DNA of 35,112 nucleotides, taken from the IMG/VR virus record IMGVR_UViG_3300046318_000098, positions 1 through 35,112 of that record; one strand, written 5' to 3'. The position numbers and the translations under genes were made by a program. How positions within the stretch are numbered: the stretch's first letter is position 1; every line of letters starts with the position of its first letter. Positions 4,710 through 33,408 of the stretch are shown one piece after another. The notes below the pieces were generated by a model that saw only the letters and a program-made list of their open reading frames with translations, was not told the origin of the DNA and did not search any database. The DNA is from a virus.

Positions 4710-4843
4710 TGGCTAAGCAGACAGAATCAAACAAGAAGGAATCTAAAAGCATTAAGCGTCCAGGCGCTCATAGTAAAAGCAAGACTTCTAAATTAAAATC
4801 TAGCAAGAACTACGTTAAAAAGAACGTAGGTCAAGGAAAGTAG
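4709..4843 (+). CDS. Small basic phage protein (K-R-P-G-x-H type), 44 residues
   Basis: The protein has 14 Lys in 44 residues. It contains S-I-K-R-P-G-A-H-S-K-S-K-T-S-K, then S-S-K-N-Y-V-K-K and ends G-Q-G-K. I recognise the K-R-P-G-x-H-x-K-x-K-T-S ... K-N-Y-x-K-K ... G-Q-G pattern from tiny conserved Bacteroidota phage proteins of unknown function. Its ATG shares a base with the spanin-like stop (TAATG), and the next gene starts one base after its stop. It is physically separate from the similar basic genes at 1462-2914, so the class is spread across the late region. Confidence 0.75.
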   Translation: MAKQTESNKKESKSIKRPGAHSKSKTSKLKSSKNYVKKNVGQGK

Positions 4844-4844
4844 T

Positions 4845-5558
4845 ATGACAAAAATAAGTACATATACATTAGACGAAAAGATAACCGCACTTGATAAGTG
4901 GATTGGATCTGATGTTAATCAACAGAACAGAACTAAAAACTTTACACCTAAGAAGTTAGCCGAGTACTTTAACGAAAATCAAGTTATTAATATTGGTGTT
5001 CCGTTACAGTATAAGTACTATACACTAGATCCTTTAGAAGCTAGACCTAACGGAACCTTGACGTTTATACCAGAGAGAGGAGCTACGGTTAATTTTTCTT
5101 CTATAAGTACATTTATTCTTAGTAAGTACACAATGAAACAGAACATAGTTTCTGACTTCCTTGATTTCTTAAATAAATGTGAGGTTCTTATATTCAAATC
5201 TAGCGATATTAATTCATTTGGATTTTATAAGATATCTGATATTGTAATATACGATGAGGAACCCAACTTCTTTACTGTTACTGTAGATTATAGAACAGGG
5301 CACGGTTTTATGGAGGAGGACGAGGACTACATGATATCTCTTGTTAGTTTAGATTCTGCTGTAGATAAAACATTTGTATTTACACAAGACACTCCTGCTA
5401 ATCCATGGATAATCAATCACAATCTTGATAAATTTCCATCAGTAACAATGGTGCTATCTACTGGACAAGTAGGTATGGCTGATGTTAATTATATAGACGC
5501 AAACAACTTAACAATAACTTTTTCTGGAGATGAATCTGGAAAAGCATATATGAACTAA
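4845..5558 (+). CDS. Tail-fibre/appendage protein with shared N-terminal anchor module
   Basis: The 237-residue protein starts M-T-K-I-S-T-Y-T-L-D-E-K-I-T-A-L-D-K-W-I-G-S-D, then T-K-N-F-T; nearly the same module opens the 87-residue protein at 12655. The middle is beta-rich without recognised motifs. The C-terminal 60 residues (N-P-W-I-I-N-H-N-L, P-S-V-T-M-V, Y-I-D-A-N-N-L-T-I-T-F, G-K-A-Y-M-N) match a small domain I know from many phage tail fibres (W-x-I-x-H-N-L ... G-K-A-Y). It opens a run of fibre genes with 1-2 base gaps. The fibre or adaptor role is well supported; its position in the tail is not known. Confidence 0.75.
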   Translation: MTKISTYTLDEKITALDKWIGSDVNQQNRTKNFTPKKLAEYFNENQVINIGVPLQYKYYTLDPLEARPNGTLTFIPERGATVNFSSISTFILSKYTMKQNIVSDFLDFLNKCEVLIFKSSDINSFGFYKISDIVIYDEEPNFFTVTVDYRTGHGFMEEDEDYMISLVSLDSAVDKTFVFTQDTPANPWIINHNLDKFPSVTMVLSTGQVGMADVNYIDANNLTITFSGDESGKAYMN

Positions 5559-5560
5559 CT

Positions 5561-6886: not shown

Positions 6887-6899
6887 TAAAATATAATAT

Positions 6900-9800
6900 A
6901 TGAAATTTAAAAGCGATATAGAGGTCCAAGCGGGTCTGAAGGATTCTTCAGGCTCCAATGGTACTTCAGGCCAAGTACTATCTTCAAATGGAGCAACAGT
7001 TAGTTGGATAAACGAAAGCTTAGTTGCTAGCGATGTTCAGAACCAAGTTAAGGCAGGTGTCGCTATAAATAAAGGGCAGGCTGTCTATGTTACTGGAGCT
7101 GACGGAACAAATATAATTGTAGGGTTGGCATCAAATACTTCTGAAGCTACTTCTTCAAAAACATTGGGATTACTTAACGCTACAGTTGCTATTAACGGTT
7201 TTGCTGATGTTGTACAAATAGGCAGATTAGCTGGATTAGATACATCTGCTGCTACTGTTGGCGATCCTGTATGGCTTGGCACTAATGGTAATCTTATCTA
7301 TGGATTAGCAAATAAACCTTATGCTCCTGCTCACTTAGTTTTTATCGGAGTTATCACTAGAGTAAATTCTAACAACGGAGAGATATTCATAAACGTACAA
7401 AACGGTTTTGAATTAAACGAAATTCACGATGTAGACATTAAAACCGATGTGCCAATTAATGGCGATGTACTTGGTTACAACGGAACATTATGGGTAAATA
7501 AAACGATTGCTGAGTGGCTAGGCTTTACACCAGTATCAGTATCAGGAACAGGAACAACAAATACACTACCTAAGTTCACAGGATCAACTACATTAGGTAA
7601 CAGTTCTATCCAAGATTTAACAACAGGAGTATTAATTAATAATTCAATTACTGCTACTTCTGCTATTGCAAGAGGAACAAATTTAACTCCTACATTAGTA
7701 GCTACTGCAAATAATGATATATTAGTTGGATTGGATATTTCTCCTACTTTTACAAATGGAGCTTTTACTACTGTTACAAATGCGTCTTTACGACTTAATG
7801 GTACAAATCAAGGATTTATTTTTGCTGATTATGTTGGCGGAAATAGTAATTATGCAATATATCCAAAAACAATACCTAATGCCAATAATTTTGTTTTAAG
7901 GACTGATAGTTCTAATACAATTTTAAATGCGCCAGCTAGCAATGGTACTCTTTCACTTAGATTAGCTAATACTACTTTTGCTCAAATTTCTCCAACTTCA
8001 GGTAATTTTATACTTCAAAATGGCGGTACATTTACAGACGCTGGTTTTAGATTAGACGTTAACGGAACTGCAAGAGTACAAGGTGCTTTAACTGCTACTG
8101 CTGATTCTACTATTAATGGAGTAAATATAGGATTAGGTGGCGGAGCGGTTGCTTCTAACACAAGGGTAGGCACAAGCGCTTTAAATGCTAATACAACAGG
8201 TACTAATAATTCTGCCTTTGGAAATCAATCTTTGTTTTTTAATACAACTGGAGGTTTTAATACTGCATTTGGAGCTGGTTCGCTTAGAATAAACACAACT
8301 GGTTCTGTAAATACAGCGGTTGGATCGGAAGCATTATATAATAATAATGGAGGTCAAAATACAGCGGTTGGAGTATCGGCATTATACGGAAATACTACTG
8401 GAGGTCAAAATATTGCGTTAGGAAGAGATGCTGGAAGGCATATTGCTAACGGAACAACTGCAAATACAATATCTAATAATTCTATATTTTTAGGTTTTGC
8501 AACAAAAGCATTAGCGGACAATCAAACTAATCAAATTGTAATTGGTCATAACGCAATAGGTTTAGGTTCTAACACAACGATTATAGGTAATACATCGACA
8601 ACTGCTACTGCTATTTACGGAGACTTATTGTTAGGCGGTACAACAGATAACGGAACAGATAAGTTACAAGTTACTGGTAGTGCAAATATTACAGGTCAAT
8701 TAAAACTAGGCTCTACAATAACTAATGGCACTTTTACTTATACATTACCAGGAGCTACAGGAACATTAGCTTTAGCTGGAGACATTCCTACGTCTATAGT
8801 AACAACATTCTCAGCAGGTACAACAGGTCTTACACCAAATACAGCTACAAGCGGAGCTATAACATTAGGCGGTACTTTAGTTATTGCAAATGGAGGTACT
8901 GGATCAACAACTGCTGCTGGAGCAAGAACAAATTTAGGCGCTACAACAGTTGGGAGTAATATGTTTACATTAACCAATCCAGGTGCTATTACATTTCCAA
9001 GATTTAATGCTGACAATACTGTTTCTGCATTAGACGCTGCTTCTTTTAGAACAGCTATTGGAGCTGGTACAGGATCAGGCACAGTAACTTCGGTTGCTGC
9101 TTTGACTATAGGTACAACTGGAACAGATATAACATCAACAGTAGCTACAGGAACAACAACTCCGGTAATTACTTTAAATGTTCCAACTGCAAGTGCAACA
9201 AATAGGGGAGCGTTAAGTGCTGCTGATTGGACAACTTTTAATAGCAAAGCTCCAAGATATTCAAGCTATGTAATTGTAAGTCATTCGTCATATACTAATA
9301 TATGTACAATTAACGGAGATGCTCTTGCTTCAGCTATAAAAATGTCTTTTCAAGGAACTTCTGGAGGAGTTGTTGTGAACACAACAGCAGAAATACTTGT
9401 CAATCATTACCAAGATATATCTATAACTTCTAATTCAGGATTTTATTCTCAATTAAATATTAGAATAGTAAGTAACAACAACGAATCTTATTCAATAGAG
9501 GCCCAAGTTATCGGGGCAGCTCAAGCAACGGGATTAAACATCGAAGTATTTCCTTTAAACAGTGAATCTGTTACATTCCAAGGAACATTAGTTACGGCAG
9601 GAACTACTCTTGTGCATACAACTAGACCTGGAATATATATTAGCGCTACAGGAGGGGATACTGGAACTATTTCATCTGGTGGTAATATAAATTCCGGTGG
9701 TGATGTAAACGTAGCCGGTATTTTAAATGTTGGATCGACAACTAATGTTTACCCTGTTATACAAAGAGGCTCAACACCTTCGGGATCACAAGGTATCGTA

Positions 9801-11444
9801 TTAACAGCTGGAGCTAATAAATCCGCAGCTGGAGGAGGAATAACATTTGCAGACAATGCAGATAGCGGAGGCACTATAACTTTGGTTGGTAATTCAGGCG
9901 ATATTTATGGAGGTGGTGTTAATATCACGGCTTACGGTCAATATAACGCTGCTAATATCATAACATTTGCAACAAGAAGTGGAGCAGGAACAACTGCTGA
10001 GCGTATGCGTATCTTTTCAGATGGAAATGTTTCTTTAGGTTCTTCAACACCAACAAATAATGGATATAGATTTCAAGTTAATGGAGGTCAATATGGAACT
10101 TATTTAAAAGGTGGTGATTACGGGACTGGTAGTACAATAGCAAATTTTGTAGATGCGGGCGGAACATCGGCAATGTATGTAAGAGGCGATAATAGAGTCG
10201 GTATTGGAACTGTAAGCCCTAACTATAAGTTGTCGGTAGTTCCTTTAGCTACTTATGGAAATGCTGAAGATGGGAATATAAGTATAAGTGCTTCTGCAAG
10301 TGGAGGAACAGTATCGGCACCTACAACTGCTGGAGGTATAGTTTTTGGAGATCAAAATGTAACTAATGGATACGCAGGAAGAATAGCTGTAATACAGAAT
10401 AGCCCATCAAACTCTACCGCATCACAAATGCGGTTTTATACAAATAGCGGAGGTGGAAATAATTCTACAGCCGAACGTGTGCGTATTACATCTGCTGGTG
10501 ATGTAGGAATAGGAGCTGTTTCTCCTAGGGTTAAATTAGACGTAGAAGCATATACTGCATTTATGTCTTTGTCTTCAGCTATAAATTCAGAAGCTACTAC
10601 AGTTGACCAACAAATAGGAGGAATTGATTTTAGAAAACATTATGCTTTAGCTATAAGCGGATCTATAAGGTTATTGCAATCCGGCGGAGTTAATAATTAT
10701 TCTCAAGGTCATTTAGCTTTTTATACAAATGACGGATCTACGCCTTTTGGAAGCGTGCCTCCTGAAAAAATGCGAATTACTTCGAATGGAACTGTACTAA
10801 TAGGCACAACCACAGACGCAGGGTATAAGTTAACACTAAAGGGTACTGCTGGAATAGGTCAATTTACAAATGGGACTGCTGCAATTGATGCTTATGGGTC
10901 TATTGCTTATTATGGGTGTAATACTGCTACTAATGGTATTAGAATAAATTCAGTCGGTGATTTATTAGTTGGTAAAACAGGAGGGTGGACTGAAAATGGT
11001 TTTCAAACTGAAGCAGGGGCAACTACGGTAGGTATAACAAATAATTCTACGGCAAACAATATATTTTTAAGAAAAAATGGTGTTTCTGGAAATGTAATTG
11101 CGTTTTATTATGATGGTACTGGTGTTGGTTCTATTGCTATAACATCATCTACAACAGGTTATTATACAAGTTCAGATTATAGACTTAAACAAGATTTAAA
11201 ATCTTTTAACGGATTAGATTTAGTTTCTAAAATAAAAGTTTATGATTATGAATGGAAATCAGATGAAACTCGCTCTTATGGAGTTATAGCTCACGAATTA
11301 CAAGAAGTAATACCACAAGCAGTAACTGGAGATAAAGATGCGGAAAAAATGCAATCAGTAGATTATTCAAAATTAGTTCCTATATTAGTAGCATCTATTC
11401 AAGAACTAAAAGCAGAAATTGAACTTTTAAAATCTAAATTGTAA
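6900..11444 (+). CDS. Long tail fibre with YadA-like repeats and C-terminal S74 self-cleaving chaperone
   Basis: The 1514-residue protein is the main candidate receptor-binding fibre. Residues 1-170 form a stalk-like start (G-T-S-G-Q-V-L-S-S-N-G ... V-K-A-G-V-A-I-N-K-G-Q-A-V-Y-V). Residues about 425-515 show YadA/Hep_Hag-type repeats (N-T-A-F-G-A-G-S-L, N-T-A-V-G-S-E-A-L, N-T-A-V-G-V-S-A-L) that build trimeric beta-rolls. Long Ser/Thr/Gly-rich sections with S-G-G-T-I and A-E-R-M-R-I motifs follow. The end has the S74 intramolecular chaperone: S1425-D-Y-R-L-K1430 (catalytic Ser/Lys motif), Y-G-V-I-A-H-E-L-Q, and a terminal coiled coil. The chaperone normally trims itself off after trimer folding. 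Fold class is secure; receptor unknown. Confidence 0.93.
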   Translation: MKFKSDIEVQAGLKDSSGSNGTSGQVLSSNGATVSWINESLVASDVQNQVKAGVAINKGQAVYVTGADGTNIIVGLASNTSEATSSKTLGLLNATVAINGFADVVQIGRLAGLDTSAATVGDPVWLGTNGNLIYGLANKPYAPAHLVFIGVITRVNSNNGEIFINVQNGFELNEIHDVDIKTDVPINGDVLGYNGTLWVNKTIAEWLGFTPVSVSGTGTTNTLPKFTGSTTLGNSSIQDLTTGVLINNSITATSAIARGTNLTPTLVATANNDILVGLDISPTFTNGAFTTVTNASLRLNGTNQGFIFADYVGGNSNYAIYPKTIPNANNFVLRTDSSNTILNAPASNGTLSLRLANTTFAQISPTSGNFILQNGGTFTDAGFRLDVNGTARVQGALTATADSTINGVNIGLGGGAVASNTRVGTSALNANTTGTNNSAFGNQSLFFNTTGGFNTAFGAGSLRINTTGSVNTAVGSEALYNNNGGQNTAVGVSALYGNTTGGQNIALGRDAGRHIANGTTANTISNNSIFLGFATKALADNQTNQIVIGHNAIGLGSNTTIIGNTSTTATAIYGDLLLGGTTDNGTDKLQVTGSANITGQLKLGSTITNGTFTYTLPGATGTLALAGDIPTSIVTTFSAGTTGLTPNTATSGAITLGGTLVIANGGTGSTTAAGARTNLGATTVGSNMFTLTNPGAITFPRFNADNTVSALDAASFRTAIGAGTGSGTVTSVAALTIGTTGTDITSTVATGTTTPVITLNVPTASATNRGALSAADWTTFNSKAPRYSSYVIVSHSSYTNICTINGDALASAIKMSFQGTSGGVVVNTTAEILVNHYQDISITSNSGFYSQLNIRIVSNNNESYSIEAQVIGAAQATGLNIEVFPLNSESVTFQGTLVTAGTTLVHTTRPGIYISATGGDTGTISSGGNINSGGDVNVAGILNVGSTTNVYPVIQRGSTPSGSQGIVLTAGANKSAAGGGITFADNADSGGTITLVGNSGDIYGGGVNITAYGQYNAANIITFATRSGAGTTAERMRIFSDGNVSLGSSTPTNNGYRFQVNGGQYGTYLKGGDYGTGSTIANFVDAGGTSAMYVRGDNRVGIGTVSPNYKLSVVPLATYGNAEDGNISISASASGGTVSAPTTAGGIVFGDQNVTNGYAGRIAVIQNSPSNSTASQMRFYTNSGGGNNSTAERVRITSAGDVGIGAVSPRVKLDVEAYTAFMSLSSAINSEATTVDQQIGGIDFRKHYALAISGSIRLLQSGGVNNYSQGHLAFYTNDGSTPFGSVPPEKMRITSNGTVLIGTTTDAGYKLTLKGTAGIGQFTNGTAAIDAYGSIAYYGCNTATNGIRINSVGDLLVGKTGGWTENGFQTEAGATTVGITNNSTANNIFLRKNGVSGNVIAFYYDGTGVGSIAITSSTTGYYTSSDYRLKQDLKSFNGLDLVSKIKVYDYEWKSDETRSYGVIAHELQEVIPQAVTGDKDAEKMQSVDYSKLVPILVASIQELKAEIELLKSKL

Positions 11445-15032: not shown

Positions 15033-17256
15033 TTTATACTCGGTTGTAAAGAATCATATTCCTCCAACTGTGCTGGCTAATAAGAACAATAAAAAATCTT
15101 GGCAGTACGGATACGATGAGAAGTATGACATGATTGTTATATCTAAGAACGGAACCATAGGCGAAGTTTATAATATAAACGGACTACTTATAGCTCTACC
15201 TAAAACTCCAGATGTAGTATACTCTAGAGATAAGAAAAAAGAAAATCAATACTGGCAACCATTTGAATATCCTAAAGAGTTAGATAAAATAAAGTCTATA
15301 TTTCATTGGCATGATATGCCTAATGATTTTAAATCTAAGTGGGTTGACTATATAGAGACTGAGTTCGACAGAAGAGAAAACGGATTCTTCTTCATGAATA
15401 ATGGAGTAGAGACTTATATGACCGGGTCTCACTACATGTATTGTCAGTGGACAAAGATTGACGTCGGACTTCCTGACTTTCGTGAGGCTAATAGAATATT
15501 CTTTATTTACTGGGAGGCATGTCGTGCAGACGATAGATGCTTCGGTATGGTTTACTTAAAGATTAGACGTTCTGGATTTTCTTTTATGGCTTCATCGGAG
15601 GCTGTAAATATAGCTACATTAGCGAAAGACGCTAGGATTGGTATCCAGTCTAAGACAGGGGGTGACGCTAAGACTATGTTTACTAATAAGGTTGTTCCTA
15701 TATCTAGCAATCTACCATTCTTCTTTAAACCAATCATGGATGGTATGGACAAGCCTAAGACTGAACTTGCCTTCAGGGTTCCTGCGTCTAAGATTACAAA
15801 GAAGAATATGTACGAAAGTTCAGAAGCTGAACTAGAAGGATTAGATACATCTATTGACTGGAAGAACACAGCTGACAACAGTTATGACGGTGAGAAATTA
15901 GTATATCTTGTTGAGGACGAGTCTGGTAAGCTAGAAGCTCCTAACAATATCCTTAACGGATGGCGAGTTAGAAAGACTTGTCTTCGTTTAGGTAGTAGAA
16001 TTATCGGTAAATGTATGATGGGTTCAACTCCTAACGCGCTTGCTAAGGGTGGATCTAATTTTAAGAAGCTATACGAGGATTCAAATATAAAAACACGTAA
16101 CGAGAACGGCCAGACAAAATCCGGAATGTATTCATTATATATTCCAATGGAGTGGAACTTCGAGGGTTATATTGACAGATACGGAATGCCTGTATTTAGA
16201 AAGCCAGAAACTCCGGTAACCGGGATAGACGGAAGACTAATAACAAACGGAGCCATAGACTACTGGGAGAATGAGGTTGCATCTTTAAAGAATGATGCAG
16301 ACGCATTGAATGAGTTTTATAGACAGTTCTCCAGAACAGAGTCTCACGCGTTTAGAGATGAGAGCAAGGCGTCTTTGTTTAACTTAACAAAGATCTATCA
16401 ACAGATAGACTATAACGACTCTCTAATCAGAGATCAGATACTAACTAGAGGATCGTTTCACTGGAAGAATGGAGAGAAGGACACTCAGGTTATTTGGACT
16501 CCAGATCCAAGGGGTAGATTCCTTGTTTCATGGATCCCTAATTCAGCAATGCAGAACCAAGTAGTTTATAAAAATGGAAACAAGTACCCTGGTAATGAGC
16601 ACATTGGTGCTTTTGGTTGTGACCCTTACGATATATCCGGAACTGTCGGTGGAGGAGGATCTAACGGATCTCTACATGGACTTACTAAGTTTAATATGGA
16701 TAATGCTCCTAGTAACCATTTCTTCCTTGAGTATATAGCTCGCCCTCAGACGGCAGAGATATTCTTTGAAGAGGTTCTTATGGCCTGCATATTTTATGGG
16801 ATGCCAATTCTAGTAGAGAACAATAAACCTAGGCTGCTATATCACTTTAAGAACAGAGGCTATAGAGGATTTTCAATGAACAGACCGGATAAGCACTTTA
16901 CCAATCTATCAAAGACAGAGCGTGAGCTTGGAGGAATACCAAACTCATCTGAAGATGTTAAGCAGTCGCACGCGGCCGCTATTCAATCTTATATAGAGAA
17001 GTATGTCGGAATGGATACTGAAGGAACTTATAGAGACTCTGATGAGATGGGCGACATGTACTTCACTAGAACTATAGAGGAGTGGGCTAAATTTGATATA
17101 AATAACAGGACTAAATTTGACGCTGCAATCAGTTCAGGACTAGCTATTATGGCTAATCAGAAGAACATATACTTGGCGGCAAAGAAAGAGTCGAAAATAA
17201 GTGTTAATTTTGCAAAGTATAATAACTCAGGAACTAGAAGTGAACTTATTAGATAA
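15010..17256 (+). CDS. terL: Terminase large subunit
   Basis: The 748-residue DNA-packaging motor shows a deviant Walker A, R186-R187-S-G-F-S191, without the usual Lys before Ser. The Walker B is L-V-Y-L-V-E302-D303-E304. The RNase H-like nuclease has F-G-C-D538-P-Y-D541, I-L-V-E603 and F-D704-A-A-I-S-S-G-L-A. The frame has no ATG before residue 41 (15130), yet the preceding stretch (L-Y-S-V-V-K-N-H-I-P-P-T-V-L-A-N-K) looks conserved. TTG at 15010 is the only NTG start in the open frame after the stop at 14980, so the start is probably TTG. It overlaps the putative small subunit and is flanked by GIY-YIG genes. Length fits crAss-like and related terminases. Confidence 0.93.
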   Translation: MQKNDQNNLYSVVKNHIPPTVLANKNNKKSWQYGYDEKYDMIVISKNGTIGEVYNINGLLIALPKTPDVVYSRDKKKENQYWQPFEYPKELDKIKSIFHWHDMPNDFKSKWVDYIETEFDRRENGFFFMNNGVETYMTGSHYMYCQWTKIDVGLPDFREANRIFFIYWEACRADDRCFGMVYLKIRRSGFSFMASSEAVNIATLAKDARIGIQSKTGGDAKTMFTNKVVPISSNLPFFFKPIMDGMDKPKTELAFRVPASKITKKNMYESSEAELEGLDTSIDWKNTADNSYDGEKLVYLVEDESGKLEAPNNILNGWRVRKTCLRLGSRIIGKCMMGSTPNALAKGGSNFKKLYEDSNIKTRNENGQTKSGMYSLYIPMEWNFEGYIDRYGMPVFRKPETPVTGIDGRLITNGAIDYWENEVASLKNDADALNEFYRQFSRTESHAFRDESKASLFNLTKIYQQIDYNDSLIRDQILTRGSFHWKNGEKDTQVIWTPDPRGRFLVSWIPNSAMQNQVVYKNGNKYPGNEHIGAFGCDPYDISGTVGGGGSNGSLHGLTKFNMDNAPSNHFFLEYIARPQTAEIFFEEVLMACIFYGMPILVENNKPRLLYHFKNRGYRGFSMNRPDKHFTNLSKTERELGGIPNSSEDVKQSHAAAIQSYIEKYVGMDTEGTYRDSDEMGDMYFTRTIEEWAKFDINNRTKFDAAISSGLAIMANQKNIYLAAKKESKISVNFAKYNNSGTRSELIR

Positions 17257-17930
17257 TGGCATACTTATACAGACATATTAGATTAGATAAGAACGTTCCG
17301 TTTTATATTGGTATAGGAATAGACAATACTTACTATAGAGCTAACTCTAAGAAGAGTAGGAATGATCATTGGAATAAGATAATCAATAAGACAGATTACG
17401 AAGTTGAAATATTATTTGAGCATGATGATTACGATTTTATAAAAGAAAAAGAAATTGAATTTATTGCTTTACACGGAAGAAGCGATTTAGCGTTAGGTAC
17501 TTTATGTAATCTAACAAATGGAGGTGATGGATGTTTAGGTTTAGTTCATTCAGATGAAGCTAAATTAAAAATGAGTATTCCTAATAAAGGAAAGATAATT
17601 TCTGAAGAACAAAGAAGAAAAGTTTCTGAGTTTCAAAAAGGAAGAGTTCATAGTTTAGAATCTAGAAAAAAAATGTCAGAGGCTGTCATGGGCGAAAAGA
17701 ATCACATGTACGGAAAAAAGATATCAGAAGAAACTAGACAAAAGAAAATAAAATCAGCTAAAAGGGGTTCTGAAAATGTAACTGCTAAATTAACTGATCA
17801 AGATGTTTTAAGGATAAGAGAAATATACTTAACCAAAAAATACAGTCATATAAAGTTAGCTGAAATGTACAATATATCTAAAAGTAACGTATATTCCATA
17901 TTGAAAAGAAATACTTGGAAACATATATAA
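17256..17930 (+). CDS. GIY-YIG homing endonuclease with NUMOD3 repeats and C-terminal helix-turn-helix
   Basis: This 224-residue protein is a paralogue of the one at 14008. Its start (L-Y-R-H-I-R-L-D-K-N-V-P-F-Y-I-G-I-G) is nearly the same, and both have N-K/S-K-T-x-Y-E-V-E-I-L-F and K-E-K-E-I-E-F-I-A-L-H-G-R. The conserved N-L-T-N-G-G-D-G lies at 85-92. NUMOD3-type segments follow (G-E-K-N-H-M-Y-G-K-K-I-S at 146-157). The end differs from its paralogue: K-L-T-D-Q-D-V-L-R-I-R-E-I-Y ... L-A-E-M-Y-N-I-S-K-S-N-V-Y-S-I-L is a helix-turn-helix typical of endonuclease DNA-binding tails. It starts on the last base of terL (TAATG) and ends five bases before the portal gene, so it sits between two essential genes. 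Confidence 0.9.
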   Translation: MAYLYRHIRLDKNVPFYIGIGIDNTYYRANSKKSRNDHWNKIINKTDYEVEILFEHDDYDFIKEKEIEFIALHGRSDLALGTLCNLTNGGDGCLGLVHSDEAKLKMSIPNKGKIISEEQRRKVSEFQKGRVHSLESRKKMSEAVMGEKNHMYGKKISEETRQKKIKSAKRGSENVTAKLTDQDVLRIREIYLTKKYSHIKLAEMYNISKSNVYSILKRNTWKHI

Positions 17931-21533: not shown

Positions 21534-22934
21534 ATGGCTGGATCAGTACAAGCAACCCCAGGGTTTGCATTACAACCTAGTGCTACAAGACAAACATTAA
21601 GCACTAACTACATCACAAATTTCGACTTCTTGAATCAGTATCTTCCTGATACTTACGAGAAAGAATTCGAGCGTTACGGAAATCGTTCTGTTGCATCTTT
21701 CTTAAGAGCAGTAGGAGCTGAGATGCCGTCTAACTCAGACCTTATCAAATGGGCAGAACAAGGTCGTCTTCACACTAAATACATTGACTGTTCTTCTGAT
21801 GCAGCTGTAGGTGGAGATACTGCTACAATTACAGTTGATGACGCATTAACAGGATCTATCGCTTTCAAACCAGGGCAAACAGTTTTCTTATCAGATAACG
21901 CTGCTGCTGCTAACTCAAACAAAGCTATCATTACTTCTGTTGATTATGCTGCTGGTACTTTTGACGTAGCTTACTACGAGGCTGCTGGACAGTCTTTCGC
22001 TGCTACTGCTACAGTAACTGCTTTCGTTTATGGTTCTGAATTCAAAAAAGGAACTGAAGGTCAAACTGAATCTTTAGAGGCTCAAGATGATATCTTCGAA
22101 AACAGCCCAATCATCATCAAAGAGAAATACGCTGTTTCTGGTTCTGACATGGCTCAAATCGGATGGGTTGAAGTAACTACTGAAAATGGTGCTACTGGAT
22201 ACTTATGGTACATTAAATCTGAGCACGAAACTCGTTTGCGTTTCGAAGATTACTTAGAAATGTCTATGATCGAAGCTGTTCCTGCTGAGGCTAACTCTGG
22301 AGCTGTAGCTAATACTGCTTTTGGAAACAAAGGATCAGAAGGTTTATTCTACGCTGTAGGACAAAGAGGTAACGTATGGTCAGGCGGTAACCCAACTGCT
22401 TTATCTGATTTTGACGCTATCATCCAACGTTTGGATAAGCAAGGAGCTATCGAAGAGAACGTATTGTTCATCAACCGTCAATTCTCTTTTGATATCGACG
22501 ATATGTTGGCTGCTCAAAACTCTTACGGAGCTGGTGGAACATCTTACGGATTGTTCGACAACGATAAAGAAATGGCATTAAACTTAGGATTTACAGGATT
22601 CCGTAGAGGTTACGATTTCTACAAAACTGACTGGAAATACTTAAACGACGCTACACTTAGAGGTGGAGTTGTTGGAGGTGCTATCAATGGTGTATTAGTT
22701 CCTGCTGGATCTACTACTGTTTACGATCAAGTACTTGGTAAAAACGCTAAACGTCCATTCTTACACGTTCGTTATAGAGCTTCTGAAACTGAAGACAGAC
22801 GTTACAAAACTTGGATTACTGGTTCTGCTGGTGGAGCACAAACTTCTAGCTTAGATGCTATGGAAGTTCACTTCTTGTCAGAAAGAGCTTTATGTACTTT
22901 AGGTGCTAACAACTTCTTCTTGTTCGAGAACTAG
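21534..22934 (+). CDS. Major capsid protein
   Basis: The 466-residue protein has the start N-F-D-F-L-N-Q-Y-L-P-D-T-Y-E-K-E-F-E-R-Y-G-N-R-S-V and D-L-I-K-W-A-E-Q-G-R-L-H-T. Its end, H-V-R-Y-R-A-S-E-T-E-D-R-R-Y-K-T-W-I-T-G-S-A-G-G ... L-S-E-R-A-L-C-T-L-G-A-N-N-F-F-L-F, is a C-terminal pattern I know from crAss-like and related HK97-fold capsids. Codon use differs from neighbours: CGT for Arg, TTC, AAC and GCT are frequent, while nearby genes prefer AGA and A/T-ending codons. That is typical of a very highly expressed product. A terminator follows directly. Residues 85-165 could be an inserted beta subdomain (Ala/Thr-rich). Confidence 0.9.
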   Translation: MAGSVQATPGFALQPSATRQTLSTNYITNFDFLNQYLPDTYEKEFERYGNRSVASFLRAVGAEMPSNSDLIKWAEQGRLHTKYIDCSSDAAVGGDTATITVDDALTGSIAFKPGQTVFLSDNAAAANSNKAIITSVDYAAGTFDVAYYEAAGQSFAATATVTAFVYGSEFKKGTEGQTESLEAQDDIFENSPIIIKEKYAVSGSDMAQIGWVEVTTENGATGYLWYIKSEHETRLRFEDYLEMSMIEAVPAEANSGAVANTAFGNKGSEGLFYAVGQRGNVWSGGNPTALSDFDAIIQRLDKQGAIEENVLFINRQFSFDIDDMLAAQNSYGAGGTSYGLFDNDKEMALNLGFTGFRRGYDFYKTDWKYLNDATLRGGVVGGAINGVLVPAGSTTVYDQVLGKNAKRPFLHVRYRASETEDRRYKTWITGSAGGAQTSSLDAMEVHFLSERALCTLGANNFFLFEN

Positions 22935-25432: not shown

Positions 25433-28400
25433 ATGGCAAATATTGATGTAAATTTTATTGCCGGTAGAATGAACAAAGATTTTGATGAGCGCGTAATCCC
25501 TGCTGGGGAATATGTAGACGCGTTAAATATTAGAGTCGGATCTACTGAAAATAATAGTGTAGGGGCTGTAGAAAATGCTAAGGGAAATATTAAGCTTACT
25601 AACTTACAGTATAACGGAACTTCTCTTATAGATGCTAAATGTATTGGCGCATATGAGGATGGATCTAATGAAACGCTATACTGGCTTGTAGCATCTGCTA
25701 CTGTTGATATAGTAGTATCATTTAATGCAGAAAAAAACTTACTAAAGTACCATGTAGTATCTGAAGACGTACTTAACTTTGACCATAAGTACTTAGTTAC
25801 AGGTATTAACTTAATCGATGACTTACTATTCTGGACGGATAATTTAAATCCTCCTAGAAAAATAAACGTAAATAGAAACTACCCCGAACCAATAGGCGGC
25901 GTAGATCAAATTGATGATAGTGATATATCTGTGATAGTCGCTCCTCCTTCATCAGCGCCTACAATATCATTACTTACTGTACCTAGGGAAGAGAATTATA
26001 TGACTGATAAGTTCATATCTTTTGCTTATAGATACAAATATAAGGATGGTGAGTATAGTGCTTTATCTCAGTTTAGTGATATAGCATTTGAACCTGGAGC
26101 ATTTGGACTTGATTATTCTACATTTGAGAATTCAGGAATGCAGAATATATTTAACTCTGTTAATGTAAAGTTCAATACTGGTACTGATAATGTCGTTGGT
26201 GTAGATATCTGCTTTAAACTATCAGACTCTAGTGTAATAAATGTTGTAGAAAAATACAACAAATCTCAAGAAGGGTGGGCTGATAACAAAATAGAACAGA
26301 TTACATTTACAAATAAAAAAATATATACAACCCTTACAGAGAGCGAGCTGCTTCGTACGTTTGATAACGTGCCTAGATTAGCTAAGGCTCAAACAGTCAT
26401 GGGTAATAGGTTAATGTATGGAAACTATGTTGATGGTTACAACATTACAGACGAAGACGGTAACGAAATAGACATTGACTACAACTTAGATTTAATGTCT
26501 GAGAATATAGGATTTGTTGAACTTCCTATTACATTAAATAGCGGAGTTAACTATACAATAGATCCATCTAGTACAAAGACTGTAAACGACTCTCAGTTTA
26601 ATATAGATTTAACAGGTATGCCGCTAGTTAGTGGATCATACCTTTCTATAACTGTAAACTTACAACATGACTCATACTCAGGAGATGCTTCGTATACGAA
26701 TCCTCCTAGAAATGATTTTGAATATGAGTTAGTATTTAATATTCAAAAAAATTACAGTAGCGTTAATGAGTTGGCTACTAGTCAAGAATTTATAGACGCA
26801 ATATCAACTCATAAAATATATGCTGACGCGTGTTCTGGAACTTCATTAACAGATTTCTTTAACTGTCAGTTGATTACAAAGGCGGGATGGAGTGAAATAG
26901 GAACTGGTATATCTAACGCTACTGGCGGATTTACTATATCATCTACATTAGGTTCTGATATTATAAGCATTCAGATTCCAGCTATCAAGTTTGGATACGA
27001 GGCAACTCCAGGTCAATTTGTATATGCTTATGAGTACCTTGCAAATACTAATACTTATGCTAGCTTTTCAGCTATAGGATCTAATCAGAGCCTTCATAGT
27101 AATAGGGATTATGAGGTAGCTATTGTATACATGGATGAATATAACCGTAGTTCAACTGCCCTAGTAGATACAAATAATACAGTATTTATTCCTCCGTATA
27201 ATTCAGATAAAAAGAATTATATAAGAGCAAGTATAATTAGTAAAGCTCCAAGCTGGGCTAAGAAGTATAAGTTTGTAGTAAAGCCTTCAAAAAGTCAGTA
27301 TCAGGTTGTATACTCTAATCTTTTCTTTCAAGAAGACTCAGGATTTACTTGGTTTAAATTAGAAGGAGATAATAGAAGTAAGGTACAAGAAAACTCAACG
27401 CTTATTGTTAAGGCAGACTCTAATGGGGTATTAAATAGTTTAGTAAAAACTAAGGTTCTTGCATTAGAGGCACAACCTAGAGACTTTATAAAAGACAATA
27501 AGAATTCAGCAGGTCAAGATATTATAGAGCCAGCAGGAATGTATATGAGGCTTAAGGCTTCTAATTTTTCGGCTGCATATACTGAGAACTCATTTATAGA
27601 TGAGGGAGAAATAAGTGAAGCTGGAAGCTACGCTAATTTATCTTATCCTTGTTATATAGATAATCCATTATTTGGACAACCTGGAGAATTACAATTTGCT
27701 CCTTACGATATACCAGCTGGAAGTTTAATAAATATTAACTTTAAACTAACTAGAGAAGCTGCCGTAAGCAGTTGTGGTAATAGAACGTATACATTTAATA
27801 AGTCGTTTACAGCATCTCAAGATTACACTAGTTTATATACCTTTATAATAGGGGATCAAATAAACTTAGAAGCAGGAGATAGTACGGGTGGTGATGATAC
27901 GGTAAATAAAAACGACTTTAATAAGAACTTAGTTAGTCCTTATACAGGTGATATTAACGCCATACCAGGTACTAACCAATACGAATTTCAACAAGATACT
28001 ACTGACGGAAGGTTATTCTTCGTAATGAAGAGTGGTACGCCTAACTGTAGTGGTAAGAAGTCAAGAGTGTCTTGTCAAATACAAGTACAAAGAACTGAAT
28101 CATTAATCATATTTGAAACAGAAGCCGCTGATGCTAATGGTGAGACTTACTTTGAAGGAAGCGAATCATTTGATATTATAAACGGATATCATCAAGGAAA
28201 TGTTACTAATCAGTCGTCTGGTATTCCAGCTGTAGTTGATTTGAACTTCTTTGACTGCTTTGCATTTGGTAATGGTGTTGAAAGTTACAAGGTTGGGGAC
28301 TCGTTAACAGGAGCTCCGTTTTACTTAGGAAGCAGGGTTACTGCTGTTTCTCAAGAGGAATTTAAAGAAGCGCATAGATATGCTGGAATAACATACAGCG

Positions 28401-31400
28401 GAATATACAATGAAGAAACTAATGTAAATAAATTAAATGAATTTAATTTAGCACTAGCAAACTTCAAGGACTGTGAGAAATCATTCGGTCCAATTAACAT
28501 ACTTCACGGAAGAAAAACAGACGTGCTTACCTTACAAGAGGATAAGATATCCTATGTATTAGCGGGTAAGAATTTACTTTCTGATGCTGCCGGAGGTGGT
28601 GCGATTACATCTATACCTGAAGTATTAGGTACTCAAATATCTAGAATTGAAGAGTTTGGTATTAGTAACGATGCGGCTAGTTTTGCTGCATGGGGAGAGG
28701 ATATTTACTTTACAGATACTAAGAGAACATCTGTTATTAATTTAAAAGGAGGAGCATCTCAATCCGACAACTTAATTCCTATATCTAAATTAGGTATGAA
28801 TGGTTGGTTTAGAGATAACTTTAAGGACAAGTTAAATAATCAAAAGATTGGTGGATACGACCCTTATTTAAAGGAGTATGTACTATCTGTTAATGATGAA
28901 AAGCTACCGGCCCCTATAGAAACATTTGACTGTGGATTTACAATATCTCAAGATAATTCTAATAGTGAGTTAGTATTTAATTTGGAGTATGGTAAAATAA
29001 TAGGAGAAGCTTCTTTTGATTATAACTTTGAATCAGGATCAGCACATATACTTATACAATATAATGGCGAAACTGTTATAGATGAGGACTTGTCTGGATC
29101 AGGAGCTATATCATTTTATAAAAATGTAATAAATCCTACAACGGCTCTAGTTACAATAACTCCAGTAAATGCTACTTACAACATACTTTCAAACTGTATA
29201 GAATCAGATGAAATAACAGTTGTTAGAATTGTAGTTAACTCACCTTCAAATGAAGGACAGACTACTCATAATAATTATAACTGGGCGCTTAATGGATATA
29301 GCAGCCCTACAAATATTGACTTCGTACTATTAGAATCTGATGGATTATCACTTTATCAATCTACCACAAGTCAAGCATCTATAGGTGTTATACCTGCGTT
29401 TGGTAGTACCATTAAGATGCAATCTGATAAATACATTACGGATACGTTTGATTTTGACCCAGAGGCTAATTCTCTTAAGTATTTAGTGTCCGATACATTA
29501 TATACAGAGGCCGATATAAATACGTTAAGACCTTTATTAAATACAGCTACGCCTATAATAAATCCGTCTAGCGGTAAATTTGAATCTTCATTTATATATA
29601 ACAATCCGAACAGACTTCAGTATCTTTATTTAGTTTGGGACTTAGTAAATGCATACGGAATTGACTTATGTTACAGCGATATAAGCAGTGAAGATGTTTG
29701 TATCAACTGTGGACCTATCAACTGTGAGGTATCTGATTGGTCTGATTGGTCTGAGTGCATTGATGGAATTCAAACTAGAACTAGAACAGTTTTAGTTCCT
29801 GCTGAAAATGGAGGTACACCTTGTCCTGACTTATCAGAGAATAGGGTTTGTGGATATCAAGCAGACTTTTGTTACGATGACTTAAGTAGTCAATTAGCTT
29901 GTTACTGTGGTGCTCCAGAGGTGAACTGTCAGGTATCTGACTGGACCGATTGGTCTGAATGTATTAATGGATCTCAAACAAGAACAAGAACGGTACTAGT
30001 TCCACCTTCAGGAGGAGGAGATTCATGTCCTGTGCTATCAGAGACAAGAAGTTGTGTTCCAGTTGTTAACTGCCAAGTATCAGATTGGTCAGACTGGTCA
30101 ACATGTGACGATGGATTCCAAACAAGAACCAGAACGGTTATAGTAGAACCTTCTGGAGGAGGTACTCCATGTCCTACATTATCAGAAACTCGTGCTTGTT
30201 CAAGTATAAGTATAACAAACGCTATATGTAATACAGACGGAGGAAGCACTATTACAAAAAGATTTAGAATATCTATTGGTAATGCTCCAGCTATTTACAC
30301 AATTGCGGCTGGTACCACAATAAACCCAGCAAACTTAGAGTATTCTATATCTTCTGCTCCTGGAGATTCATTCTTAGAGGTTAAATTTAAACCGGCCCTA
30401 ACTTATGGTAATGAGTTCTCTATTGAATTGTTATTGAAGAACTCAACAGGAACCATTGTAGCTACCAATATTACTCAAACAGTATATGGTGATTATCAGA
30501 GCTTTTTGCCTGGATGTACTCCTGTTAACTGTGTAGTGTCTGAGTGGTCTGCATGGTCTGCATGTGTTAACAACGTTTCTACTAGAACTCGTACAATATT
30601 AACTCAGCCTACAGGAGGAGGAACTCCATGCCCTGAATTATCAGAATCAAGAGACTGTGCTAACTGTGAGGTTTCAGAGTGGTCTGCGTATTCAGCATGT
30701 AACGACGGTTTTAAAACTAGAACTAGAACAATTGTAACTCAACCATACAATGGAGGATCTGCATGCCCTACATTAACAGAGACTGTAACGTGCTCAAGCA
30801 TCAGTATAACAAATCCAATATGTAACGATCCGAATAGCGGAGGTATAGTATTGAGAAAGTTTAGAATATCTATAGGTGACGCTCCTGCTACATATACTAT
30901 TCAAGCAGGAACTGTAATTAACCCTGCTGGATTAGAGTATACTATAGTAGCTACTCCTGGTGATTCTTACTTACAAGTTAAGTTTAGACCAGCTGTAACT
31001 TATGGTAACGAATTCTCAATAGAATTATTACTTAAAAACTCAACAGGAGCTACGGTTGGAACTAACGTTAGTCAAACTGTATATGGAGATTATCAAAGCT
31101 TCTTACCAGTTTGTACACCGGTGAACTGTGTAGTTTCTGACTGGTCAGCTTGGTCAACTTGTAACGGTGGAACTCAAAGCAGAACTAGAACTATTATAAC
31201 TCAGCCTTCAGGTGGTGGACAAGCTTGTCCTACACTAACGGAGACTAGAGATTGTCCTGTAGACTGTGTTGTTTCAGCTTGGTCTGATTGGTCAACTTGT
31301 TCAGAAGGTTTACAGAGTAGAACTAGAACAGTAGTAACCCCTGCAATTAACGGAGGAGCTGCTTGTCCGGTACTATCAGAAACTAGAACATGCTCAAGCA

Positions 31401-32116
31401 TAGGAATAGGAAGTACAATATGTAATACAGATGGAGGAAGTACTATTACAAAAAGATTTGCAATATCTATTGGTAACGCTCCTTCTACATATACAATTGT
31501 AGCCGGTACAGTTTCTAATCCTGCTGGCCTTGAATATAGTATAAACTCTACTCCTGGATCTTCTTATTTACAGGTTACATTTAGACCTTCTGTTACTTAT
31601 GGTGGTGAGTTTTCAATAGACTTAATATTAAAGAACCCGTCTGGAATTACTGTAGGATCAAGTGGACTACAAACAGTATACAGTACATATCAAAGCTTCT
31701 TGCCTGGTTGTTACCCAGTAAACTGTGTAGTATCAGATTGGTCAGCTTGGTCAGCATGTATTGATGGAGTAGAGACAAGAACAAGAACCATTATAACTCA
31801 ACCTTCTGGAGGAGGAAATCCTTGTCCTCCATTAACAGAGACTAGAGGATGTTATGTTCCGCCAACAAGCTATGCGTTTACATTATCTAATAGTGCTAGC
31901 TATGATTTTAGTTATGCTTGTACATTCTTAGATATGGGATTAACTTTATACGGATCTGAAAGTAGTATCTTTAGCAATCAATACTTATATTCTGATTCAG
32001 GATTAACATCTCTATTTGATGGGGAAAGTAAATTTAGAAGATACGAAGGATTTGGTTTTGCAAACACTATTGCAATAGGTAGTAACGGTGAAATTATAAC
32101 ATACGAAAATTGTTAA
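25433..32116 (+). CDS. Giant tail 'stabilization' protein with C-terminal thrombospondin type 1-like array
   Basis: The 2227-residue protein starts with the signature I-D-V-N-F-I-A-G-R-M-N-K-D-F-D-E-R-V-I-P-A-G-E-Y-V-D-A-L-N-I-R-V-G, which is well known from tail stabilization proteins of crAss-like and other Bacteroidota phages. The conserved body ends near Y-L-V-W-D-L-V-N-A-Y-G-I-D-L-C-Y-S at about 1415. Residues 1430-2140 hold eight copies of a W-S-x-W-S-x-C ... T-R-T-R-T ... G-G-x-x-C-P-x-L-x-E-x-x-x-C domain, interleaved with three copies of a roughly 109-residue beta module. A short Y/S/G-rich end (2141-2227) follows. The array looks like an adhesive extension added to the structural core and may contact host glycans or proteins. 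No signal peptide is present, as expected for a virion protein. Confidence 0.88.
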   Translation: MANIDVNFIAGRMNKDFDERVIPAGEYVDALNIRVGSTENNSVGAVENAKGNIKLTNLQYNGTSLIDAKCIGAYEDGSNETLYWLVASATVDIVVSFNAEKNLLKYHVVSEDVLNFDHKYLVTGINLIDDLLFWTDNLNPPRKINVNRNYPEPIGGVDQIDDSDISVIVAPPSSAPTISLLTVPREENYMTDKFISFAYRYKYKDGEYSALSQFSDIAFEPGAFGLDYSTFENSGMQNIFNSVNVKFNTGTDNVVGVDICFKLSDSSVINVVEKYNKSQEGWADNKIEQITFTNKKIYTTLTESELLRTFDNVPRLAKAQTVMGNRLMYGNYVDGYNITDEDGNEIDIDYNLDLMSENIGFVELPITLNSGVNYTIDPSSTKTVNDSQFNIDLTGMPLVSGSYLSITVNLQHDSYSGDASYTNPPRNDFEYELVFNIQKNYSSVNELATSQEFIDAISTHKIYADACSGTSLTDFFNCQLITKAGWSEIGTGISNATGGFTISSTLGSDIISIQIPAIKFGYEATPGQFVYAYEYLANTNTYASFSAIGSNQSLHSNRDYEVAIVYMDEYNRSSTALVDTNNTVFIPPYNSDKKNYIRASIISKAPSWAKKYKFVVKPSKSQYQVVYSNLFFQEDSGFTWFKLEGDNRSKVQENSTLIVKADSNGVLNSLVKTKVLALEAQPRDFIKDNKNSAGQDIIEPAGMYMRLKASNFSAAYTENSFIDEGEISEAGSYANLSYPCYIDNPLFGQPGELQFAPYDIPAGSLININFKLTREAAVSSCGNRTYTFNKSFTASQDYTSLYTFIIGDQINLEAGDSTGGDDTVNKNDFNKNLVSPYTGDINAIPGTNQYEFQQDTTDGRLFFVMKSGTPNCSGKKSRVSCQIQVQRTESLIIFETEAADANGETYFEGSESFDIINGYHQGNVTNQSSGIPAVVDLNFFDCFAFGNGVESYKVGDSLTGAPFYLGSRVTAVSQEEFKEAHRYAGITYSGIYNEETNVNKLNEFNLALANFKDCEKSFGPINILHGRKTDVLTLQEDKISYVLAGKNLLSDAAGGGAITSIPEVLGTQISRIEEFGISNDAASFAAWGEDIYFTDTKRTSVINLKGGASQSDNLIPISKLGMNGWFRDNFKDKLNNQKIGGYDPYLKEYVLSVNDEKLPAPIETFDCGFTISQDNSNSELVFNLEYGKIIGEASFDYNFESGSAHILIQYNGETVIDEDLSGSGAISFYKNVINPTTALVTITPVNATYNILSNCIESDEITVVRIVVNSPSNEGQTTHNNYNWALNGYSSPTNIDFVLLESDGLSLYQSTTSQASIGVIPAFGSTIKMQSDKYITDTFDFDPEANSLKYLVSDTLYTEADINTLRPLLNTATPIINPSSGKFESSFIYNNPNRLQYLYLVWDLVNAYGIDLCYSDISSEDVCINCGPINCEVSDWSDWSECIDGIQTRTRTVLVPAENGGTPCPDLSENRVCGYQADFCYDDLSSQLACYCGAPEVNCQVSDWTDWSECINGSQTRTRTVLVPPSGGGDSCPVLSETRSCVPVVNCQVSDWSDWSTCDDGFQTRTRTVIVEPSGGGTPCPTLSETRACSSISITNAICNTDGGSTITKRFRISIGNAPAIYTIAAGTTINPANLEYSISSAPGDSFLEVKFKPALTYGNEFSIELLLKNSTGTIVATNITQTVYGDYQSFLPGCTPVNCVVSEWSAWSACVNNVSTRTRTILTQPTGGGTPCPELSESRDCANCEVSEWSAYSACNDGFKTRTRTIVTQPYNGGSACPTLTETVTCSSISITNPICNDPNSGGIVLRKFRISIGDAPATYTIQAGTVINPAGLEYTIVATPGDSYLQVKFRPAVTYGNEFSIELLLKNSTGATVGTNVSQTVYGDYQSFLPVCTPVNCVVSDWSAWSTCNGGTQSRTRTIITQPSGGGQACPTLTETRDCPVDCVVSAWSDWSTCSEGLQSRTRTVVTPAINGGAACPVLSETRTCSSIGIGSTICNTDGGSTITKRFAISIGNAPSTYTIVAGTVSNPAGLEYSINSTPGSSYLQVTFRPSVTYGGEFSIDLILKNPSGITVGSSGLQTVYSTYQSFLPGCYPVNCVVSDWSAWSACIDGVETRTRTIITQPSGGGNPCPPLTETRGCYVPPTSYAFTLSNSASYDFSYACTFLDMGLTLYGSESSIFSNQYLYSDSGLTSLFDGESKFRRYEGFGFANTIAIGSNGEIITYENC
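30200..30526 (+). repeat. Beta module copy a (109 residues)
   Basis: First of four copies. It runs from S-S-I-S-I-T-N-A-I-C through K-R-F-R-I-S-I-G-N-A-P, G-D-S-F-L-E-V-K-F-K-P, N-E-F-S-I-E-L-L-L-K-N to Y-Q-S-F-L-P-G-C-T-P. It lies between thrombospondin-like repeats 3 and 4. Confidence 0.85.
30794..31123 (+). repeat. Beta module copy b (110 residues)
   Basis: Second copy, between thrombospondin-like repeats 5 and 6. It differs from copy a mainly near its start (C-N-D-P-N-S-G-G-I-V-L-R-K) and keeps the N-E-F-S-I-E-L-L-L-K-N-S-T-G and Y-Q-S-F-L-P cores. Confidence 0.85.
31394..31720 (+). repeat. Beta module copy c (109 residues)
   Basis: Third copy, between thrombospondin-like repeats 7 and 8. 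Its first 80 bases are very close to copy a at DNA level (T-I-C-N-T-D-G-G-S-T-I-T-K-R-F coding stretch), while its later part is more diverged (S-T-Y-Q-S-F-L-P). Confidence 0.85.
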
Positions 32117-32136: not shown

Positions 32137-32649
32137 ATGGCAGTATACTATATAGATACACAAGATTTTTCTACAGCAACAGCTATATGGACAGATTCTA
32201 TTCTTACAACAAAGGCTCCTGATGGTTATTACTCTTTTGATTTTAACTATAGAAGACAGTTTAATGGGTTGCTACAGACAATTGGGTCTTGTTCAACTCC
32301 ACCACCACCAGATGTTCCTAGCATAAGTATAACAAATACAATTTGTAACACATCTGACGGAGGAAATACTGTATTGAAAAGATTTAGAATATCTGTTGGT
32401 AATCCACCTTTAAACTATACGATTGTAACTGGTACGGTTGTAAACCCTGCCGGCCTTGTATTTTCAGTTGTAACTACTCCTGGAGACTCTTATCTAGAGG
32501 TTGCGTTTAAACCATCGCAAACTTCTGGAAGCGAGTTCTCTATAGAGTTATTACTTGAAAATTCATCTGGAACAGTTGTTGCTACTAATGTTAGTCAAAC
32601 TGTATATGGTAACTACCAAAGCTTCTTACCATCATGTCCATCAAACTAA
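32137..32649 (+). CDS. Short tail protein carrying a fourth beta module, 170 residues
   Basis: Residues 1-58 resemble a surface module common in Bacteroidota proteins (T-T-K-A-P-D-G-Y-Y-S-F-D-F-N-Y-R-R-Q-F-N-G-L-L-Q-T-I-G-S-C), which normally follows a Y-L-Y-S-D-S-G-L-T segment like the one ending the giant protein upstream. After a Pro linker, residues 62-167 are a fourth copy of the beta module (S-I-S-I-T-N-T-I-C ... Y-Q-S-F-L-P-S-C). No thrombospondin-like repeat is present. The gene follows the giant protein after 20 A/T-only bases, so it looks like a split-off or duplicated end of that protein. The function is inferred as tail adhesion. Confidence 0.75.
   Translation: MAVYYIDTQDFSTATAIWTDSILTTKAPDGYYSFDFNYRRQFNGLLQTIGSCSTPPPPDVPSISITNTICNTSDGGNTVLKRFRISVGNPPLNYTIVTGTVVNPAGLVFSVVTTPGDSYLEVAFKPSQTSGSEFSIELLLENSSGTVVATNVSQTVYGNYQSFLPSCPSN
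32320..32637 (+). repeat. Beta module copy d, in a separate gene
   Basis: Fourth copy of the module, outside the giant gene. It keeps K-R-F-R-I-S-V-G-N, G-D-S-Y-L-E-V-A-F-K-P, S-E-F-S-I-E-L-L-L-E-N and Y-Q-S-F-L-P, with N-P-A-G-L-V-F in place of N-P-A-G-L-E-Y. Confidence 0.85.
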
Positions 32650-32661: not shown

Positions 32662-33408
32662 ATGCAATATACATTATCGTTTAGTGAAGACTCAAAGGGA
32701 TGGACATCATTCTTTTCGTTTATTCCAGAGAAGATGATCGGTATGAACTCATACTTCTACACGTTTAAAAACGGAAACTTATATAGACATAACTCCAATG
32801 ATCTTAGAAATAACTTCTATGGTGTTCAGTATAGCTCTAGAATAAAAGGGGTTTTTAATGTAGAGAATGGCATGGTTAAGAACTTCAAGACTATATCATT
32901 AAATAGTGATGACTCTTGGAATTGTAGTATTATTACCGACATGGATTCTGGGTTTATAAGTAATTCATACTTTACATTAAAGGAGGGTGATTACTTTGGA
33001 TATATAAGAAGATATGTTTCAGATGATAACCTTTCTATGAGGTCTGCTCAGGGTATAGGTGACGTGTCGTTTGTTAATTCCTCTAACGCATCTGCCGTTG
33101 TAGTGCTATTTAACTTTGCTATTGGAAGTATAATAAACGTTGGGGATATGATATATAAAAACAATTCTGGATCAATAATAAAGATCGGAGAAATTGTTGC
33201 TGTATCAGGTAACTCTATAACTGTAAATACTACTATAACTGGAGGTAGCATACCTTCTATATCTGACTATATTTTATGCCTTAAGAATAGCACTGCTGAG
33301 TCTTATGGAGCAAGAGGATATTACATGCAATTTGATTTAGAGAATGCTAATACTTCAAGAGTAGAGCTGTTTTCTGTAGGAAGTAACATTTTTAAAAGTT
33401 ACCCTTAA
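32662..33408 (+). CDS. Tail protein of the 'K-G-W-T-S-F' family, 248 residues
   Basis: The start L-S-F-S-E-D-S-K-G-W-T-S-F-F-S-F-I-P-E-K-M-I-G-M-N-S-Y-F-Y-T-F-K-N-G-N-L-Y-R-H-N is a conserved block I know from virion proteins encoded beside the stabilization protein in crAss-like and related phages. It continues N-F-Y-G-V-Q-Y-S-S-R-I and F-K-T-I-S-L-N-S-D-D-S-W. The C-terminal part is beta-rich with two G-x-I-I-N-V-G-D-M-I-type segments. In related phages the family is a tail component. It is preceded by a repetitive TAAATAAATA leader without a Shine-Dalgarno sequence. Position and family support a tail role; its precise place is unknown. Confidence 0.75.
   Translation: MQYTLSFSEDSKGWTSFFSFIPEKMIGMNSYFYTFKNGNLYRHNSNDLRNNFYGVQYSSRIKGVFNVENGMVKNFKTISLNSDDSWNCSIITDMDSGFISNSYFTLKEGDYFGYIRRYVSDDNLSMRSAQGIGDVSFVNSSNASAVVVLFNFAIGSIINVGDMIYKNNSGSIIKIGEIVAVSGNSITVNTTITGGSIPSISDYILCLKNSTAESYGARGYYMQFDLENANTSRVELFSVGSNIFKSYP

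Follow-up and report, generated by a model that had tools for sequence, protein, structure and literature searches.

Thrombospondin type 1 repeats at the split muzzle gene of a crass-related phage form an exchangeable cassette and, probably, an adhesion arm

The window analyzed here (35,112 nt of the IMG/VR virus record IMGVR_UViG_3300046318_000098) contains a 2227-a.a open reading frame (ORF) on the + strand (nt. 25433–32116) with no internal stop codon. Its C-terminal end comprises eight thrombospondin type 1 (TSP1) repeats of 43 a.a each (beginning at a.a 1431, 1499, 1547, 1700, 1745, 1899, 1945, and 2098; nt. 29723–31852), the groups of which are separated by three copies of a 105-a.a module. 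The resulting order, 3-module-2-module-2-module-1, is exactly that given in a first-pass annotation made from the sequence alone. The features of the locus are as follows.

25433–28891, + strand: muzzle N-terminal core (a.a 1–1153), homologous to phiCrAss001 gp44 and the elemo, Calle, and phi13:2 proteins (profile, Foldseek)
28892–29710, + strand: accessory region (a.a 1154–1426), closing with the conserved end motif LYLxWD...LCYxxxSSxxxCxxC
29723–29851, + strand: TSP1 repeat 1 (Pfam)
29864–29911, + strand: second copy of the FCYDDLSSQLACYCG-type Cys motif, between repeats 1 and 2 (sequence)
29927–30055, + strand: TSP1 repeat 2 (Pfam; AF2 model)
30071–30199, + strand: TSP1 repeat 3 (Pfam; AF2 model)
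30203–30517, + strand: module 1, beta-strand, with one Cys near either end (AF2 model, sequence)
30530–30658, + strand: TSP1 repeat 4 (Pfam; AF2 model)
30665–30793, + strand: TSP1 repeat 5 (Pfam; AF2 model)
30797–31114, + strand: module 2 (72% a.a identity to module 1)
31127–31255, + strand: TSP1 repeat 6 (Pfam)
31265–31393, + strand: TSP1 repeat 7 (Pfam)
31397–31711, + strand: module 3 (68% a.a identity to module 1)
31724–31852, + strand: TSP1 repeat 8 (Pfam)
31862–32116, + strand: C-terminal tail domain (a.a 2144–2227) with a YSDSGLT...FDG-type motif, and the stop codon (sequence)
32137–32649, + strand: 170-a.a ORF, a short conserved N-terminal domain followed by a fourth module copy
32662–33408, + strand: 248-a.a ORF, muzzle C-terminal part (Pfam crAss_MUZ_C, E = 5e-12)

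The N-terminal domain of the 170-a.a ORF carries the motif YYIDTxxFSTATAxWTDxxLTTKAPDGYYS, and its module copy lies at about nt. 32323–32637 (69% identity to module 1). The entire 2227-a.a ORF occurs with zero mismatches in an independent, near-identical contig (L009), and this base-for-base identity indicates that it is not an assembly artefact. Across the 13,540 bases shared with that contig, 37 of the 39 mismatches fall at nt. 21614–22580, within a gene in the major-capsid-type position (nt. 21534–22934), with none in the next 12 kb, a cluster of the kind that recombination at the capsid gene would leave. We also noted a homing endonuclease ORF (nt. 17256–17930) between the terminase large subunit and portal genes.

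The earlier annotation had recognized TSP1-like domains by eye and proposed profile searches and structure prediction, both of which bear the assignment out. The 2227-a.a ORF matched Pfam PF19028 TSP1_spondin (E = 1.2e-100, eight stretches) and PF00090 TSP_1 (E = 1.7e-30, seven stretches), both far over the cut-off, and 500 shuffled versions of the array region gave no TSP1 HMM match at E ≤ 10. An AlphaFold (AF2) model of repeats 2–5 (pLDDT 85.5; pTM 0.54, the domain arrangement being uncertain) adopted the TSP1 fold, with Foldseek matches to properdin (prob 1.00) and complement C6 and C9; global TM-scores were low because the query is multi-domain. At the level of residue identity across 88 distinct repeats, the ladder positions W6, R19, and R21 were invariant and W9 was kept in 82, with conserved positions being mostly ladder and disulphide residues. 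The HMMs and the predicted fold together show the repeats to be true TSP1-superfamily domains. The array is acidic (net charge −20) and was not detected at the DNA level by Tandem Repeats Finder. Recent slippage as the source of the copies was ruled out because these have diverged (about 70% in DNA among modules).

Residues 1–1426, upstream of the array, match phage structural proteins (phrog_14478; 40% to MW202828). The relationship to the muzzle protein gp44 of phiCrAss001 was missed among PDB sequences by phmmer and by a 7-sequence muzzle profile, and was detected only by hhalign with a profile of 32 relatives (aligned over gp44 7–151, E = 3e-6) and by fold search. The AlphaFold model of a.a 1–1150 is of moderate confidence (pLDDT 68, pTM 0.49); its top PDB matches by far were the phiCrAss001 structures 7qol_P (E = 5e-9) and 7qok_A (E = 6e-8), both at prob 1.00 and covering about 1120 columns, i.e., the muzzle fold with its propeller, Ig-like, and crass domains. 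The C-terminal part of the muzzle is supplied by the separate 248-a.a ORF, which matches gp44 1200–1283 (33%) as well as the C-termini of the elemo and Calle fused proteins, making this a split variant of what is otherwise one chain. In the fused muzzles, the N and C parts lie about 5–20 a.a apart (boundaries at 1240 and 1260 in elemoF, 1072 and 1078 in Calle), while the gene is likewise split in phi13:2 and MW202828. The array sits at the split point together with the accessory region and the 170-a.a ORF, whereas fused relatives run straight through; the accessory region (a.a 1154–1426) is absent from elemo and Calle and present in MW202828 and phi13:2. An end motif (LYLxWD...LCYxxxSSxxACxxC) closes the core in most of 80 muzzle-family loci, beyond which the C-termini diverge; the family as a whole has more than 560 members at minimum. 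These data show the array carrier to be a crassvirus-type muzzle homologue whose gene is split at the array. The assignment to a phage tail protein in the first-pass annotation thus stands, with its identity amended and a fourth module added in the next ORF.

The LCYxDxSSxxxCxxC form of this motif is found at the end of the core (nt. 29666–29710), again within arrays (nt. 29864–29911), and in L069, L074, and L044; it may be a small Cys hairpin serving as a joint. Elemovirus, Pervagoviridae, and Pachyviridae contain the closest relatives in culture; the records put none of these in Crassvirales, so that "crass-related" is the safe term. The hosts of the window virus are probably Flavobacterium-type bacteria, and contig L066 hints at Flavobacterium as a host genus among its relatives. 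The muzzle of phiCrAss001, a hexamer, sits at the end of the tail and gates ejection, its surfaces are said to vary via insertions, and the crass domain at the tail tip is thought to touch the cell (PMC10172136).

The array differs sharply in length between related phages, a comparison that the earlier annotation had proposed. Relatives with a 78% identical core carry zero TSP1 repeats (L069–L072, L091) or one (L073, and L082, which adds a vWA-like domain), compared to eight in the window and 11 in L010, whose core is 90% identical. L021 and L025 share 84% DNA identity flanking the array on both sides, yet L021 has four repeats and no modules, and L025 has ten repeats and three modules. The L025 array instead resembles that of L010 (69–71% DNA identity over 1.3–2 kb; best module 85% a.a), even though these two muzzle cores share only about 35% protein identity. 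The content of the 170-a.a ORF also varies, with a module in the window and L010 and a TSP1 repeat in L021, L025, L027, L032, L038, and L066, and in phi13:2 a Big_9/cadherin-like domain occupies the array slot. Array gain, loss, and swap amid a kept core, together with the L021/L025/L010 pattern and the phi13:2 slot, show that the array is an exchangeable cassette, the length and content of which turn over while the flanking muzzle stays intact. In a further muzzle protein (L044, nt. 1627–6930), a TSP1 repeat precedes a vWA-like domain; the latter has a DxTGS motif and scores 20.7 bits with Pfam VWA, under the cut-off of 23.8.

Of the 58 cysteines in the 2227-a.a protein, 45 lie beyond residue 1420. 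Each repeat has four (C1, C2, C4, and C5) and lacks C3 and C6, and the CSxxCGG segment is 4 a.a shorter than in bacterial six-Cys relatives; the four-cysteine pattern and the shortened Cys-Gly segment had both been read correctly from the sequence alone. Given the group-2 pairing of C1–C4, C2–C5, and C3–C6 (PMC11990869), the absence of C3 and C6 amounts to the loss of one whole disulphide, and the phage repeats are a reduced, two-disulphide variant of the six-Cys group-2 (spondin-type) repeat.

The first-pass annotation had questioned how such domains could fold. Virions are assembled in a normally reducing cytoplasm, which would favor reduced cysteines, with folding by means of the Trp-Arg ladder alone or with bound metal. 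The distribution of cysteines across 133 non-redundant repeats in 49 proteins argues against this, as partners vanish as pairs. Bacterial repeats in this survey have six cysteines, C3 and C6 are absent together as standard in the phage repeats, C2 and C5 are both absent in L050, L053, and L055, and C1 and C4 are both absent in repeat 1 of L049. The modules behave similarly, with both of their cysteines (one near each end) lost from module 1 of L025 and L027. Other discordant cases, judged by eye, reflected a contig end that cut the repeat off, a shifted C5 position, or a cysteine of the next domain, except for the degenerate L055 repeat 2, which is not parsable and looks like a real exception to paired loss. 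A cysteine 4–5 residues after C5 in six last-in-array or boundary repeats was considered as C6 and rejected, as by eye it belongs to the start of the next domain. Separately, we noted that L049, L050, and L053–L055 have TSP1-like repeats that retain just one of the disulphide pairs (C1–C4 or C2–C5), a natural reduction series.

TSP1 repeats also occur in unrelated phages (L011, L022, L026, L033–L037, L039, and L041), as 1–5 copies in proteins of 300–600 a.a that have a Cys-rich N-terminal domain in common and whose adjoining genes show almost no PHROGs match. In the fibre-type arrays counted among these (L011, L022, L026, L033–L036, and L041), new cysteines appear as matched pairs: an extra Cys just after C5 of one repeat was accompanied by an extra loop Cys in the next repeat in 14 of 14 cases, compared to 0 of 36 where the former was lacking (Fisher 7e-11, which overstates the significance given the cells are related), and repeats with and without the pair sit side by side within the same proteins. 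Two more Cys-bearing linkers, in L049 and L067, are of another type. The matched cysteines suggest inter-repeat disulphides, and these patterns are most simply read as showing bonds that form, those between repeats included. Since cysteine partners are lost and gained as pairs, the disulphides of the TSP1 array itself probably form too. Nor would this be unprecedented, as disulphides are present in the tail hub, ring, and portal-vertex proteins of the phiCrAss001 virion (PMC10172136). We therefore regard reduced cysteines as very unlikely, and the concern over a reducing cytoplasm as partly answered.

The first-pass annotation had likened the repeat cores to animal TSP1 domains. The cores are indeed those of TSP1, but the animal kinship does not hold, as the nearest sequences are bacterial and other phage repeats. 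The closest sequences outside phages are bacterial six-Cys TSP1 repeats (50–60% identical over the repeat), from metagenome-assembled genomes (MAGs) of Thermodesulfovibrionia, Acidobacteriota, Acidimicrobiales, Phycisphaerales, Nitrospina, and Myxococcales (L056–L067). That a TSP1 gene was captured recently from an animal or another eukaryote might be entertained given that the Pfam family is named after animal spondins and that TSP1-like folds also occur in algal-virus proteins; however, with phage repeats far closer to bacterial repeats of several phyla, sharing even the PVDC linker, and only weak matches to animal PDB entries, we consider such a capture extremely improbable. A core-motif scan of 84,980 species genomes returned 13 loci, most of them of the six-Cys type and located in MAGs of other phyla. 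In about 300 Flavobacteriaceae and 395 Bacteroidota genomes, PF19028 exceeded its cut-off only in the genome holding L066, a Flavobacterium MAG contig that itself bears muzzle-family genes, and a host origin of the array was rejected on this basis. Because Bacteroidota genomes are essentially without the family, the TSP1 repeat was probably not taken from the present hosts. Searches (tblastn) of 50,697 phage records with the array and with the L011 protein gave no match at this sensitivity, while the same tool detects muzzle relatives.

Based on domain type, position, and turnover, adhesion is the function we favor, and the eight repeats are most plausibly an accessory arm for adhesion that can be exchanged and that sits on the tail muzzle of a crass-related phage with Flavobacteriales-type hosts. 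Each muzzle subunit would display TSP1 repeats and beta modules as a stiff arm, stabilized by C1–C4 and C2–C5 disulphides that probably form on exit of the virion from the cell, or earlier. With six subunits per virion, a number taken from phiCrAss001 only, this would amount to about 48 repeats that, ahead of muzzle opening, touch the bacterial surface or its matrix at many points. The arm would project from the propeller region, and may do so sideways, because the split point in gp44 would fall in the propeller and not in the distal crass domain. The array is not essential, given that close relatives do without it. The window also encodes a separate 1514-a.a tail-fibre protein (nt. 6900–11444), the C-terminal end of which matches several tail-fibre families. 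This protein is likely to be the conventional binder of the receptor, and with such a gene present the arm may bind secondarily or at first contact.

The same components could instead serve as a structural spacer or docking arm, with rods of TSP1 and beta modules bearing or fixing other components of the tail (for example, the 170-a.a protein or the tail fibres) and no ligand bound outside the virion. This would suit the recurrence of the module in the adjacent 170-a.a ORF (replaced by a TSP1 repeat in other phages), the concentration of conservation on ladder and disulphide residues, and the tight head-to-tail packing that extra-Cys pairing suggests for fibre-type arrays. A copy number of 0 to 11 in close relatives is, however, hard to fit with a fixed spacer, and unrelated adhesive-type domains fill the slot in other phages, which makes a spacer unlikely. 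Adhesion might also be directed elsewhere, with the array holding the virion on non-host surfaces such as mucus or algal and particle polysaccharide and thereby raising encounter rates. A surface-retention role has been proposed for Ig-like domains on other phages, and the hosts, likely aquatic flavobacteria, feed on polysaccharide from algae; an accessory, variable, multivalent array unrelated to the infection machinery would be in keeping with such a role. The sequence, with its net charge of −20, points to no such ligand, and we hold this reading to be rather less probable still than a spacer. That the adhesion arm meets glycans at all is a guess.

More tentatively, crass-related phages may have opened the muzzle gene at a single point and come to use the gap to receive interchangeable arrays stapled by disulphides (TSP1, beta module, cadherin-like, vWA-like) that set what the tail sticks to, which would place adhesion cassettes on the ejection gate and not on a tail fibre. 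Here a classic "animal" adhesion domain acts as a mobile part of a phage, and the muzzle, which gates the ejection of DNA and protein, emerges as a place where crass-related phages alter their surface. The locus also offers a natural-variation test for disulphide formation in a cytoplasmically assembled virion protein, and its two-bond repeats, maybe folding without C3–C6 or fucosylation, could aid studies of TSP1 folding. No description of muzzle TSP1 arrays, their Cys pairing, or cassette exchange was found in the open-access literature searched.

Among known systems, the phiCrAss001 muzzle gp44 (7qok, 7qol; PMC10172136) is alike in core profile and fold, MUZ_C, and a similar tail-gene order, but is encoded by one gene, compared to two in the window, where the TSP1 array and a small ORF occupy the break. 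Annotation of TSP1 already exists in databases for proteins of uncultured Caudovirales (e.g., A0A6J5N7M8) and prasinoviruses. The group-2 repeats of PF19028 and PF00090 share the ladder residues W6, W9, R19, and R21 and the properdin fold match, whereas the phage repeats are without the C3–C6 bond and the CSxxCGG loop, have no secretion route, and sit on a virion. The heparin-binding TSRs are unlike the acidic array. The bacterial six-Cys repeats share the CVVSxWSxW...TRTRT...GGxxCPxL core and the PVDC linker, but keep all six cysteines (CGGG, CNTQPC) and lie on MAG contigs of other phyla. Finally, the TRAP/MIC2 adhesins of apicomplexans share the tandem adhesive design, and L044, where TSP1 is joined to the sub-threshold vWA-like domain, recalls them, although this is an analogy only, with no close kinship.
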